From Streptomyces sp. rh34 (GTDB taxonomy: Bacteria > Actinomycetota > Actinomycetes > Streptomycetales > Streptomycetaceae), in contig NZ_NTGZ01000004.1 in the NCBI RefSeq assembly GCF_002551245.1, forward strand, positions 1-64,000: a stretch of DNA of 64,000 nucleotides, written 5' to 3'. The translations under genes and the position numbers were made by a program. Of the stretch, positions 56,040 to 61,240 are shown in pieces. Under the pieces are notes generated by a model, which was given only the letters and a program-made list of their open reading frames with translations, had not been told where the DNA came from and ran no database searches. Positions within the stretch are counted from its first letter, which is position 1. Every line of letters begins with the position of its first letter.

Positions 56040-56308
56040 CCCTCGACCCTGCAGCGCAGCAGCGCTACCAGCGACTCGAAGCCCAAATCGCAACCCTCGG
56101 CGGCGAAGACGTGCCGATGACAACCGAGGAACTGCGCGACCTCCTCGGCGCGATCATCCACGGCCACAGCCACAGGGATCGCACGGACTTCGACCTCAAC
56201 CTCGCGATGATCGGCGTCGAGAGGCACGTCGAACTCCGCATCCAAGACTTCCTGGCCAAGCAGGCACAGGAGCAGACCTCGCCCAGCAAGGGGGATCAGG
56301 TGACCTAG
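56036..56308 (+). CDS. Small unknown protein
   Basis: 90 residues from an ATG that overlaps the previous stop. Helical (RYQRLEAQIATLGG, MTTEELRDLLGAIIHGHSHRD). GHSHRD gives possible metal ligands but no enzyme family fits. Ends just before the four-hairpin array. Confidence 0.6.
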   Translation: MTLDPAAQQRYQRLEAQIATLGGEDVPMTTEELRDLLGAIIHGHSHRDRTDFDLNLAMIGVERHVELRIQDFLAKQAQEQTSPSKGDQVT

Positions 56309-56333
56309 CGATCTTCTAAGCGGGAGGTCCTGG

Positions 56334-56461
56334 GCCCCTTGGCGGGGGCACTTCCTCTACCGCTGGCCGCTGATGTTGGCGCATCGTGCGCGGCCACTTC
56401 CTACGGCTCGGTTTGGCGACCGAGCTAAGGCCCGACTTCCGACTTCCGGTTTGGCGACCGG
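56334..56461 (+). repeat. Array of four hairpins with identical TTGGCG loops
   Basis: Four stems of different sequence present the same 6-base loop TTGGCG: GCCCC/GGGGC (56334-56349), GATG/CATC (56372-56385, enclosed by TGGCCGC/GCGGCCA at 56364-56396), GCTCGGT/ACCGAGC (56406-56425) and CCGGT/ACCGG (56446-56461). ACTTCC recurs between them at 56350, 56396, 56435 and 56442. The stems vary but pair, so single-strand or RNA structure with a fixed loop appears selected. It fills the 250-base gap before the HTH replication-type gene. The rest of the gap shows nothing else clear. Confidence 0.7.
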
Positions 56462-56559
56462 GGCCGATCAGGTCGAGCGACTACTGGGTTCCCACCCATT
56501 CACGAGGACCCCATCGGGGCTCTCGCTTTCATCCATCCCAAGAAGAGGACGGGTACATA

Positions 56560-57942
56560 GTGCAGTACGACGCACCTGCTTGTCAGCTTGAGCGCGCAAA
56601 CGATGGCGATTCGCGGCAAAAGTCCACCCCAGAACTCGGCACCCAGTGCCCCACCCTGGCCCCGTGGGCGCCCGTCAGTGCCACCGCCATGGAGGTCGGC
56701 ACCACCACCTCCCGGCACACCGGCCCCCGGAACTGGCTCCGCTCCGTCGAGTGGCTTATCGCCGCCGGCCTCCACCCCAAGGCCAACCACACCACCCTCG
56801 CCGTCGCCCAGGACCTCGCCAAGCGCATGGACTACAGCACGGGGCACGTCCGCTACGGACTCGAGGACATGGCCGTACGGCTCGACCTTGACCGGTCCAG
56901 CGTCGCCCGGCACGTGAAGTACCTCCGTCAGCTCGGCGCTCTCGTGTGGGCGCAGCACGGCTCCCGCAGCAACATCAAGCGCATCCTCGGCCGCCCCGGG
57001 TACGCAGCCACCGCCACCGTGTACGCCGCGACGATCCCGGCCGCCTACGACCACGCCATGGGCCACCGCGTCCTCGGCGAGGGGTACGAGGCGCGGGCCA
57101 TCGCGGTCCGCCAGGAGACCGCCGTTGCCGGGGGTGCGAATGGGGCCGAATCGGCTGTGGACAACTCCCTTTCGGGCCCTGTGGATAACCCCGCTAAACG
57201 ATCTCTTGCGACCCCTTCCCTTACCCCAGCCACCTATGGGGTTCAGGTTCAGATGGTGGGGGGTGTAACTACTACCGCGACGCGGCAGCAAACCACCCCC
57301 AGCCCCCCCTCCCGGACGGCCAAAACCAACAGCGGCAGCAAGAAGCGGGCCACGATCCTCGGCAACACGGTCACCGCGACCGGCATGCGCCTCGGAGACC
57401 GCCTCGCCCACGCCATCCGCCGCGCCGTTCCGTGGACCCGCCGCGCCACCCACGACCAGCTCCGGTGGATCTGCGCCGACATGGGCGAGCAGCAGTGGAC
57501 CGAGGACCAGGCCGTACGGTTCACCGTCGAGACCGGCCACCAGCACGCCGCCGGATACGCCTGGAACCCCCACCAGCCCCACCGCGTCCTCGCTGCCGCC
57601 CTCCGCACCGCCGACGCCGACCAGCTCGAGGACATCCCCCTCGACTCGGCGCACACCGTGGCGTACGAGGACTCCACCGTCGCCCGCAACCGGGCCTCCC
57701 TTGAAGCGCTGTTCGCCCTGATCCCCGCTGACGCTGCCCCGGAGCTCGAGGAGATTCCGGCCGACAGGTACACCAACGAGGACCGGCTCCGCGCCCGCCT
57801 CAACTGGAACGACTGGCCCGAGGTCGCCCGCCACTACGCCGACGACCCCGACGACGCCCTCGACCTCTACGGCACCAAGCTCTGCACCTACGCCGTCGGC
57901 CGGGACGCCCGCGCCAACAACAGCACCCTCACCCACATCTGA
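56560..57942 (+). CDS. HTH replication-type protein of Streptomyces plasmids
   Basis: 460 residues from a GTG at 56560 with GAGGACGGG upstream; the frame is open to 56386 but that part is the hairpin array. The N-terminal domain (about 45-175) with AVAQDLAKRMDYSTGHVRYGLEDMA, LDLDRSSVARHVKYLRQLGALVW and YAATATVYAATIPAAYDHAMGH belongs to a family frequent on Streptomyces plasmids and integrative elements and often linked to replication. A low-complexity linker (about 195-260) carries two DnaA-box matches in its DNA. The C-terminal part is helical with conserved Trp. I infer an initiator; a transcriptional role cannot be excluded. Confidence 0.7.
   Translation: MQYDAPACQLERANDGDSRQKSTPELGTQCPTLAPWAPVSATAMEVGTTTSRHTGPRNWLRSVEWLIAAGLHPKANHTTLAVAQDLAKRMDYSTGHVRYGLEDMAVRLDLDRSSVARHVKYLRQLGALVWAQHGSRSNIKRILGRPGYAATATVYAATIPAAYDHAMGHRVLGEGYEARAIAVRQETAVAGGANGAESAVDNSLSGPVDNPAKRSLATPSLTPATYGVQVQMVGGVTTTATRQQTTPSPPSRTAKTNSGSKKRATILGNTVTATGMRLGDRLAHAIRRAVPWTRRATHDQLRWICADMGEQQWTEDQAVRFTVETGHQHAAGYAWNPHQPHRVLAAALRTADADQLEDIPLDSAHTVAYEDSTVARNRASLEALFALIPADAAPELEEIPADRYTNEDRLRARLNWNDWPEVARHYADDPDDALDLYGTKLCTYAVGRDARANNSTLTHI
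57156..57188. other. Two DnaA-box matches inside the replication-type gene
   Basis: TGTGGACAA (57156-57164) is the complement of the Streptomyces DnaA box TTGTCCACA, and TGTGGATAA (57180-57188) of TTATCCACA. They are 24 bp apart in the same direction. They could form part of an origin that uses host DnaA. Confidence 0.5.
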
Positions 57943-59248: not shown

Positions 59249-59268
59249 GTTTTACGGCCGTAAAACTC
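59247..59268. other. Candidate parS palindrome 1
   Basis: A perfect 22-bp palindrome whose core is GTTTTACGGCCGTAAAAC. It overlaps the DciA stop and lies 98 bases upstream of parA. The same 18-bp core is inside parB. ParB sites are usually palindromes of this size next to or inside par genes. Confidence 0.7.
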
Positions 59269-60095: not shown

Positions 60096-61240
60096 TGGCG
60101 ATGAACCCCAACGAGTTCGACGACTTCCTCGAGGACGACGACGCCCCCGACCACGTCATCGACACCCGGGCCGACGGCCGGCTCCTCCGTGTCCCCCTCG
60201 GCCGCATCTCGCCGAACCTCGTGAACCCGCGGAAAGACTTCGGCACCGAAGACGACCTCAAGGACTTCGGGCGCAGCCTGAAGCGCCGACAAATCCAGGC
60301 CGTCCCCGTCGTGACCCGCAAGGCGTACCTCAACCTCTGGCCCGACCACAAAGACGGAATCGGCAACGTCGACGTCGTCATCGTCAGCGGGGAGCGCCGC
60401 TACCGCGGAGCCAGCGCCGTAGACCTGCCGGCGCTCGAGTGCGTCATCAACGACGGGTACGCCGAGTCCCGCAAGACGTTCCTCGACGCGGTCGTCTCGG
60501 AGAACATCGACCGGCAGAACTTCGACGCCATCGAGGAAGCCAACGCCGTCGAGGTCCTCGTCGAAGCGTTCGGCACCGCCCGGGCAGTGGCCGAGCACTA
60601 CGAACGGGTCGACGGCTGGGTATCGCAACGCCGGATCCTGCTCCGCCTCGCCCCCGAAGCGCAGGAGCTCGTGCGCCGCCAGAGCATGCCGCTCGACGCG
60701 GCACGCAAGCTCGGCAAGCTCGTCAAGGACTACCAGTGGTCCGCCTCGGACCAGTTGCAGTGGTGGGAGGACGAACAGCAGGAGCGAGCGAAGAAGGCGG
60801 CGGCGAAGAAGGCGGCCCGCGCTGCGGAGCGAAAGGCCGCCGCTCAGGCCGCTCCGATGCCACCGAGTTTTACGGCCGTAAAACCGGTTGGTGTGGCACC
60901 GGCCCCGGACCCGGGCATTCCGCAGCGCGTCGAGCCGGAGCAGAGCAGCCCCGCCCCGACACCGGACCCGGCCCCGGCCGCTCTTCCGGTTCAACGGGAG
61001 ACGGCACCCTCGCCGACTCCAACACCATCAGAGGCCCCACTCAACGTTGCCACGCCCGCAGTGAGACCGACAGGACCCATTCGGCAGTCCGTAGCCGCTG
61101 AGCCCTCTGTCCGGGTGCAGCAGCTGCCGACGCACGACTGGCAGCAGCTCGCGGACATCGTCATCGCCGAACTCCCCCGAGCAGCACTGCAAAACCTGAC
61201 CGAGCGACTCCTCGAGGCGGCTACAAGCCGTTCCGCCTGA
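60095..61240 (+). CDS. parB: ParB partition protein
   Basis: 381 residues. The N-terminal ParB/Noc domain has NPRKDFG (44-50), VVIVSGERRYRGA with the CTPase motif GERRYR (99-104), and ENIDRQNFDAIEEANAVEVL. The HTH region (about 155-215) includes VAEHYERVDGWVSQRRILLRL. A disordered Pro/Ala-rich linker leads to a C-terminal dimerisation helix. It binds parS, spreads along DNA as a clamp and activates ParA. A copy of the candidate parS lies inside this gene at 60867-60884. Confidence 0.9.
   Translation: MAMNPNEFDDFLEDDDAPDHVIDTRADGRLLRVPLGRISPNLVNPRKDFGTEDDLKDFGRSLKRRQIQAVPVVTRKAYLNLWPDHKDGIGNVDVVIVSGERRYRGASAVDLPALECVINDGYAESRKTFLDAVVSENIDRQNFDAIEEANAVEVLVEAFGTARAVAEHYERVDGWVSQRRILLRLAPEAQELVRRQSMPLDAARKLGKLVKDYQWSASDQLQWWEDEQQERAKKAAAKKAARAAERKAAAQAAPMPPSFTAVKPVGVAPAPDPGIPQRVEPEQSSPAPTPDPAPAALPVQRETAPSPTPTPSEAPLNVATPAVRPTGPIRQSVAAEPSVRVQQLPTHDWQQLADIVIAELPRAALQNLTERLLEAATSRSA
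60867..60884. other. Candidate parS palindrome 2, inside parB
   Basis: Perfect palindrome GTTTTACGGCCGTAAAAC, identical to the core of the upstream site, read through as SFTAVKP in ParB's linker region. Confidence 0.7.

Follow-up and report, generated by a model that had tools for sequence, protein, structure and literature searches.

Antisense-driven attenuators of plasmid rep genes are known from pT181 and pIP501, the loops of antisense RNAs carry the U-turn motif YUNR, and in the leaders of I-complex plasmids a downstream sequence complementary to the loop forms a pseudoknot. In phage N/boxB antitermination, the loop sequence class differs between related phages. Plasmid iterons are long identical direct repeats bound by Rep, and ANTAR target RNAs carry hexaloops in pairs, in which position 1 is A and position 4 is G. 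The antisense-RNA target of plasmid ColIb-P9 has the loop motif UUGGCG; compatibility in the I-complex is decided by loop nucleotides, a single nucleotide change in RNAI giving compatibility of IncK1 and IncK2 and only top-loop and interior-loop positions being of importance, as reported in PMC10724649. The cluster A prophages of mycobacteria have RNA-based origins and are extrachromosomal; they carry parABS, and their maintenance depends on a noncoding RNA region (PMC7157519). The words "loop", "hairpin" and "stem-loop" are absent from the main text of this source.

The analysed window comprises 64,000 bases (1-64000) of an 86,709-base contig. Four tandem hairpins with a TTGGCG loop, described at 56334-56461 in an earlier note made from the sequence alone, are indeed present there, with loop-to-loop spacing of 37, 37 and 38 nt and stems P1 to P4 of 5, 5, 8 and 7 pairs (G-T counted); a second, outer stem surrounds P1, P2 and P4 (Table 1). 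The word TTGGCG occurs 65 times in the window (16 on the + strand, 49 on the - strand), and stems of at least 5 pairs flank only the four sites of the array; a search of both strands of the whole contig for further TTGGCG hairpins, at 5 stem pairs including 4 Watson-Crick ones, found none. The stretch folds no better than its shuffles (z of -0.67 for the + strand as RNA and -0.72 for the - strand as DNA), and thus the support for the structure is comparative, not energetic. The ACTTCC words between the hairpins, which the note had counted in, are absent as a conserved feature from the alignment of relatives.

Comparison with the described systems revealed both common and distinct features. Like pT181 and pIP501, the locus has a long hairpin leader ahead of rep, here with the G+C-rich hairpin P6 between leader and start; the number and identity of loops differ, and P6 passes a strict terminator test in few arrays. 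Unlike N/boxB, the array has several copies per leader and is exchanged, so far, without a linked protein gene. The near-regular spacing upstream of rep is reminiscent of iterons, but only the six loop bases are repeated, on differing stems, and no exact direct repeat within the array exceeds 14 nt (present twice); the array was therefore not classed with iterons. An ANTAR target RNA was rejected as well, since the class words of the array begin with T or C. The I-complex is similar in its structured leader upstream of rep and in the loop word UUGGCG of ColIb-P9 (PMC10724649), which the window array also shows; the differences are that (i) one loop is present there and up to four in the Streptomyces array, with words changing as a set, (ii) the array is exchanged as a cassette between Rep families, and (iii) its antisense RNA is a prediction. 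The cluster A prophages resemble the element here in being extrachromosomal prophages of actinobacteria that carry parABS and a noncoding region, but those phages lack repA (PMC7157519) and have their noncoding RNA beside parA, whereas a rep-type frame stands behind the Streptomyces array.

Table 1. Features of the hairpin array and its surroundings (window coordinates).
Feature	Coordinates	Strand	Remarks
Conserved 3' end of upstream gene, CAGACCTC...GATCAGGTGAC.TAG	56273-56308	+	Kept despite differing upstream genes; read in arrays
P1 outer stem, GCGG-GAGG / CCTC-(TA)-CCGC	56320-56327 with 56354-56363	+	P1 span 56320-56363
P1 inner stem	56334-56338 / 56345-56349	+	Loop TTGGCG 56339-56344
P2 outer stem, GGCCGC / GCGGCC	56365-56370 with 56390-56395	+	P2 span 56365-56395
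P2 inner stem	56371-56375 / 56382-56386	+	Loop TTGGCG 56376-56381; most constant hairpin
P3 stem, GGCTCGGT / ACCGAGCT	56405-56426	+	Loop TTGGCG 56413-56418; most covarying stem
P4 outer stem, GC-CGAC / GTCG-GC	56430-56436 with 56472-56478	+	P4 span 56430-56478
P4 inner stem	56446-56450 / 56457-56461	+	Loop TTGGCG 56451-56456
P5 hairpin, TGGGT-TCCC-ACCCA	56485-56498	+	GGTTC-n-GAACC, loop variable, in most relatives
P6 G+C-rich hairpin	56503-56525	+	Precedes ribosome-binding site; possible attenuator
Candidate antisense RNA (complement of P4-P3, loops CGCCAA)	56405-56478	-	Predicted from P3 A-C pairs and cassette exchange
rep-type gene	56560-57942	+	Start GTG 56560 chosen by conservation of first codons; 460 aa
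Two DnaA-box sequences, TTGTCCACA and TTATCCACA	57156-57188	-	Inside rep; origin candidate

The DNA around the array has matches in 74 plasmid records, every one from Streptomyces, and among phages in ZL12 only, which is present as two records. Among the neighbouring genes, matches to ERF and DciA exceed the Pfam cut-offs; those to ParB and ParA fall under the curated cut-offs, ParA lying further downstream than the rep-type frame. In ZL12 and pCQ4 (NC_019307) alike, the array is followed by a rep-type gene, then a DciA/DUF721-type gene and the par genes, and the window element is read as a pZL12/pCQ4-like phage-plasmid. The array is located 0.1 kb ahead of the rep-type gene. Arrays also occur on elements as large as 239 and 892 kb, and one (L115) is present on pSLE1 of Streptomyces leeuwenhoekii.

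Relatives were gathered from plasmid, phage, viral-contig and genome collections, which gave 88 array loci and 64 distinct arrays; nhmmer rows under 30 bits in the first pass and under 25 bits in the second were dropped before counting, and from 55 genome-contig loci only those also matching the array profile were used. By DNA similarity (E up to 0.01), 54 of 72,556 plasmid records matched, the weakest rows being short matches and one, L112, a CRISPR spacer. This spacer, on a Streptomyces anulatus plasmid (positions 1502-1533, NZ_CP109348.1), is identical in 32 of 32 bases to window 56417-56448, the P3-P4 portion of the array; read from this identity, some host took the array cassette as a CRISPR target.

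A covariance model (R1) was built from 49 TTGGCG-type arrays, and Infernal's stricter filters were on in both genome surveys. Of 394 genomes drawn from the class, 2 had the array; both belong to the window's genus, and one is the window's own, with a single copy. Of 394 drawn from the family, 10 had it (own included), in 4 of 17 genera. The remark of the earlier note that the array is not recognised from known families holds for Rfam: no match in the window reaches the gathering score in release 15, and the best hit at E up to 5 is at chance level (14.1 bits against a cut-off of 46). It does not hold for the loop word, which equals that of the ColIb-P9 antisense target as given in PMC10724649. 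Among published papers searched by title and abstract none appears to describe the array; the original description of pZL12, which lies outside that search, may cover the region.

Conservation of the stems was assessed in an alignment (A1) of 48 distinct rows and 48 pairs. Paired changes maintaining a single-strand structure, as proposed from the window alone, were found: 14 pairs show changes at both partners (7.0 in shuffles), as do 51 cells (12.5 in shuffles). The fraction of paired cells is 94.3%, compared with 91.2% in shuffles and 38-45% with partners slid by 1-3 columns, and the covariation score is 0.097 compared with 0.052; none of 500 shuffles reached any of these four values.

Because MAFFT misplaces P3 in A1, this hairpin was counted also from its 3' arm. 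The 59 arrays anchored in this way have 24 haplotypes of the P3 interior stem, 15 with A-C and none with G-T or another mismatch. For P1, 8 of 23 haplotypes have G-T and one has A-C, a count that includes two arrays with spurious loops (L042 and L117; without both, G-T is in 7 of 21). The haplotypes of either stem are related to one another. Since A-C on the + strand corresponds to G-U on the - strand, the pattern suggests that P1 is maintained in + strand RNA and P3 in the - strand, as RNA or DNA. This A-C pattern has partial confounders: 9 of the 15 P3 haplotypes share one position whose 3' base falls in the near-invariant GAGCTAAGG; the outermost P3 pair, G-T on the + strand in most arrays, runs against it, and P4 is mixed in this respect.

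The loop, previously described as fixed, is not: its word differs among relatives, but the hairpins of one array change together rather than freely. Words were called hairpin by hairpin, and the array class was defined by the P2 word (in L114, by its other hairpins). The 64 arrays comprise 50 TTGGCG, 2 TTGACG, 6 TTGCCG/TGCCA and 6 CGCCAA arrays. Internal agreement of the word was observed in 61 of 64, against a mean of 28.8 and a maximum of 35 in 2000 shuffles that permuted each hairpin's words among arrays, a figure that is not a probability since the arrays are related; full agreement on some word besides TTGGCG was seen in 12 arrays, against 0.12 in shuffles. Set aside in this count were the P4 calls of L020, L088 and L099, which are really P5, and the spurious P1 loops of L042 and L117. 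A class change requires several parallel changes in hairpins that are dissimilar outside the loop. The discordant arrays are L050 (P1 TTGGCG, the other three TTGACG), L123 (P3 TTGACG, P2 and P4 TTGGCG-type) and L128 (P3 CTGCCA, P2 and P4 CGCCAA).

P2 keeps the class word in 63 arrays, the exception being L114 (TTCCAC). The class word is found in P3 and/or P4 of all 64 arrays and is never absent from both; it is lacking from P1 in up to 15, from P3 in 11 and from P4 in 8 arrays; P1 of L051 was scored as missing only through a differing anchor word. The scaffold words GCGGGAG, ACCGC and AAGGCC are largely constant across loop classes. Three arrays from other genera of the family, added later and kept out of the counts of 64, were read by eye: L156 has TTGGTG, TTGGTAG and CTGGTAA, a further class TTGGTG/TGGTA; L157 is TTGGC-type; and L158 has TTGCCG three times and ATGCCA once. 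The CGCCAA loops (L107, L121, L125, L126, L128 and L130) are the exact reverse complement of TTGGCG, in a scaffold of unchanged orientation. P5 was considered as a fifth hairpin with the class word: five TTGGCG arrays have GGTTC-TGGC-GAACC there, and three CGCCAA arrays have GGTTCGCCAGAACC. It was rejected because most P5 loops differ.

Pairwise comparison of loci revealed exchange of the array. Between L003 (TTGGCG) and L125 (CGCCAA), identity is 46% in the array, 94% from P6 to the ribosome-binding site and 93-98% in rep, with the junction immediately before P5; their Reps are 94% identical yet belong to different loop classes. L126 (CGCCAA) has two blocks with 89% and 92% identity to L003, separated by about 220 bases; in L003 the corresponding stretch is about 1.1 kb and holds the array plus two small genes. 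The Reps of L001 (TTGGCG) and ZL12 (CGCCAA) are 89.6% identical. The converse is also observed: P1-P4 of L001 and L003 are 98% identical with rep bodies at 39-49%, and the arrays of L005 and L006 are 99% identical with rep bodies at 42%. The pair L001/L121 was rejected as a clean exchange; the same gene seemed to be directly upstream, but about 250 extra bases separate gene and array in L121.

The Reps recovered for 55 of 64 arrays form families of 27 and 24, with four single, and each large family is paired with all four words (the array shared by L005 and L006 was counted once, under the L006 Rep). Clustering of the upstream neighbours of 62 arrays gave 33 groups, and these neighbours differ even within one loop class. 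Near-identical reps with different words, together with near-identical arrays before unrelated Reps, argue that Rep does not set the word. As far as sequence comparison can tell, the word is tied neither to Rep nor to the next upstream gene, and the array recombines as a cassette independently of both. The conserved end of the upstream gene (Table 1) could mark the leader promoter or a recombination junction. On the same comparative footing, the element is real, conserved and covarying, and its loop word changes in concert and moves as a cassette.

We hold, with belief and doubt about evenly balanced, that the array may be an RNA leader module for rep copy control and incompatibility, in which the loops set specificity and are read by a complementary antisense loop. 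The earlier note had listed an mRNA leader read by a loop-binding protein among its options; the leader is kept here as the best reading, whereas the reader proposed is a complementary loop and not a protein. Because the ColIb-P9 target word recurs here in an equivalent position, the leader of a rep gene, antisense loop-loop recognition is taken as most likely, and for a word independent of Rep and upstream gene the simplest place for the reader would be the cassette's own other strand. The proposed mechanism would include the following steps: (i) the array lies in the 5' leader of rep and acts as RNA, (ii) the opposite strand of the cassette, probably in the P4-P3 part, gives rise to an antisense RNA, (iii) the TTGGCG loops are the first contacts for the complementary CGCCAA loop, with P2, together with P1, as target and the - strand of P4-P3 as candidate donor, and (iv) loop-loop pairing, while the leader is still being made, reduces rep expression, by attenuation or at translation, to a degree proportional to copy number. 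Plasmids with the same word would then be incompatible, and those with different words would not. If the antisense RNA spanned the whole array, it would pair with it regardless of the loops, and therefore equal loops would need short or hairpin-wise antisense RNA. This mechanism is plausible.

Several observations bear on this antisense reading. The YUNR motif fits TTGGCG, TTGACG and TTGGTG, and fits CGCCAA on the complement; TTGCCG fits on neither strand, and the lack of YUNR in the TTGCCG and TGCCA loops counts against the reading, as does the loss of P3's own word in 11 of 64 arrays. A consensus scan of 56150-56900 on both strands found no promoter and no terminator, which also speaks against it, as does a fold energy no better than in shuffles. 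In elements of the TTGGCG, CGCCAA and TTGACG classes (the window contig, ZL12 and 100,000 of the 102,011 bases of NZ_CP109332), no complementary-loop hairpin with 5 pairs (4 Watson-Crick) was found outside the arrays, in keeping with a reader placed within the cassette; single hairpins with the element's own or another class's word occur elsewhere in all three. P6 was not confirmed as a firm attenuator, since the strict terminator test was passed downstream in only 14 of 64 arrays, some hits not being at P6, and the consensus scan gave none in the window. In the pair L003/L125, no pseudoknot partner downstream of the array follows the loop class, the segment from P6 to the ribosome-binding site being so similar in two arrays with different words.

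Tentatively, and with more doubt than belief, we suggest that the words may form a replication-immunity code, in which one antisense hairpin reads up to four identical loops. A class switch would then proceed either stepwise, with all loops converted one by one (as in L050, with three TTGACG and one TTGGCG), or by swapping the cassette of about 200 bases with Rep retained. Since the TTGGCG and CGCCAA words are exact reverse complements, leaders of co-resident elements could pair in trans. If the antisense reading is true, a six-base word would tell the incompatibility of these Streptomyces phage-plasmids, altering the loop word only could make elements with the same rep compatible, and the arrays would be a source of compatible low-copy vectors; the evolution of loop-loop recognition with several loops changing together would become directly testable. 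Whatever the mechanism, the array is a conserved structured element outside every Rfam family.

We consider it unlikely that the loops are instead RNA sites for an element-encoded RNA-binding protein, a repressor or an antiterminator like N of N/boxB, with classes reflecting protein specificities. Identical loops on differing stems are what a loop-binding protein would select, and a class change could follow a change of the protein. However, no class-linked protein was found among Rep and the upstream genes: the closely similar Reps of L003 and L125 differ in class, and upstream genes vary within one class. That two loop classes are reverse complements comes naturally with base pairing but would be unusual in a single protein family.

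That the hairpins act as DNA, as single-strand or cruciform origin sites for Rep, for DciA/helicase loading or for priming, appears improbable. An origin or primosome site had been suggested from the array's place before a replication-type gene, which itself was confirmed, a rep-type frame being downstream in the 55 arrays with a recovered Rep. A nearby DciA-like gene and the tolerance of P3 for changes as though the - strand folded would suit a DNA site; on the other hand, the same array precedes two Rep families, and loop words differ among elements with Reps up to 94% identical. The window-type reps offer a better candidate, as all 22 window-type reps examined contain DnaA boxes (a pair in 17 and a single box in 5; the other 5 of the 27 had cut or short frames), compared with none of 22 in the second family. 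This points to a putative window-type origin within rep rather than at the array.

The window Rep has a helix-turn-helix region near residues 99-128 and an AlphaFold model with mean pLDDT of 52; searches of Pfam, PHROG and NCBIfam at E 0.01 gave it no match, and in particular none to RepZ-type initiators. The other Rep family behind the same array matches PHROG replication initiation profiles (E 1.5e-5).

A packaging, transfer or recombination signal, the first two proposed earlier, is very improbable, for although exchange junctions are frequent in the surrounding region and the array is matched by a CRISPR spacer, no evidence for packaging or transfer was found, mobility typing assigned 50 of the 54 matching plasmid records as non-mobilizable, and the arrays followed have a rep-type frame behind them (55 of 64 recovered), even on the 239 and 892 kb elements.

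Two further observations concern the rep and par genes. The DNA word TTGTCAGC in the first rep codons (window 56580-56592) is kept in 54 of 64 arrays, in both Rep families, some of the other 10 being cut sequences. It includes TGT and CTT codons, which are rare in GC-rich Streptomyces, and its retention is best described as a constraint at the nucleotide level, as far as the alignment indicates. The palindrome TTTTACGGCCGTAAAA is found in exactly two copies, at 59250-59265 near the parA start and at 60868-60883 within parB, with zero expected in shuffles, and is a candidate parS site.
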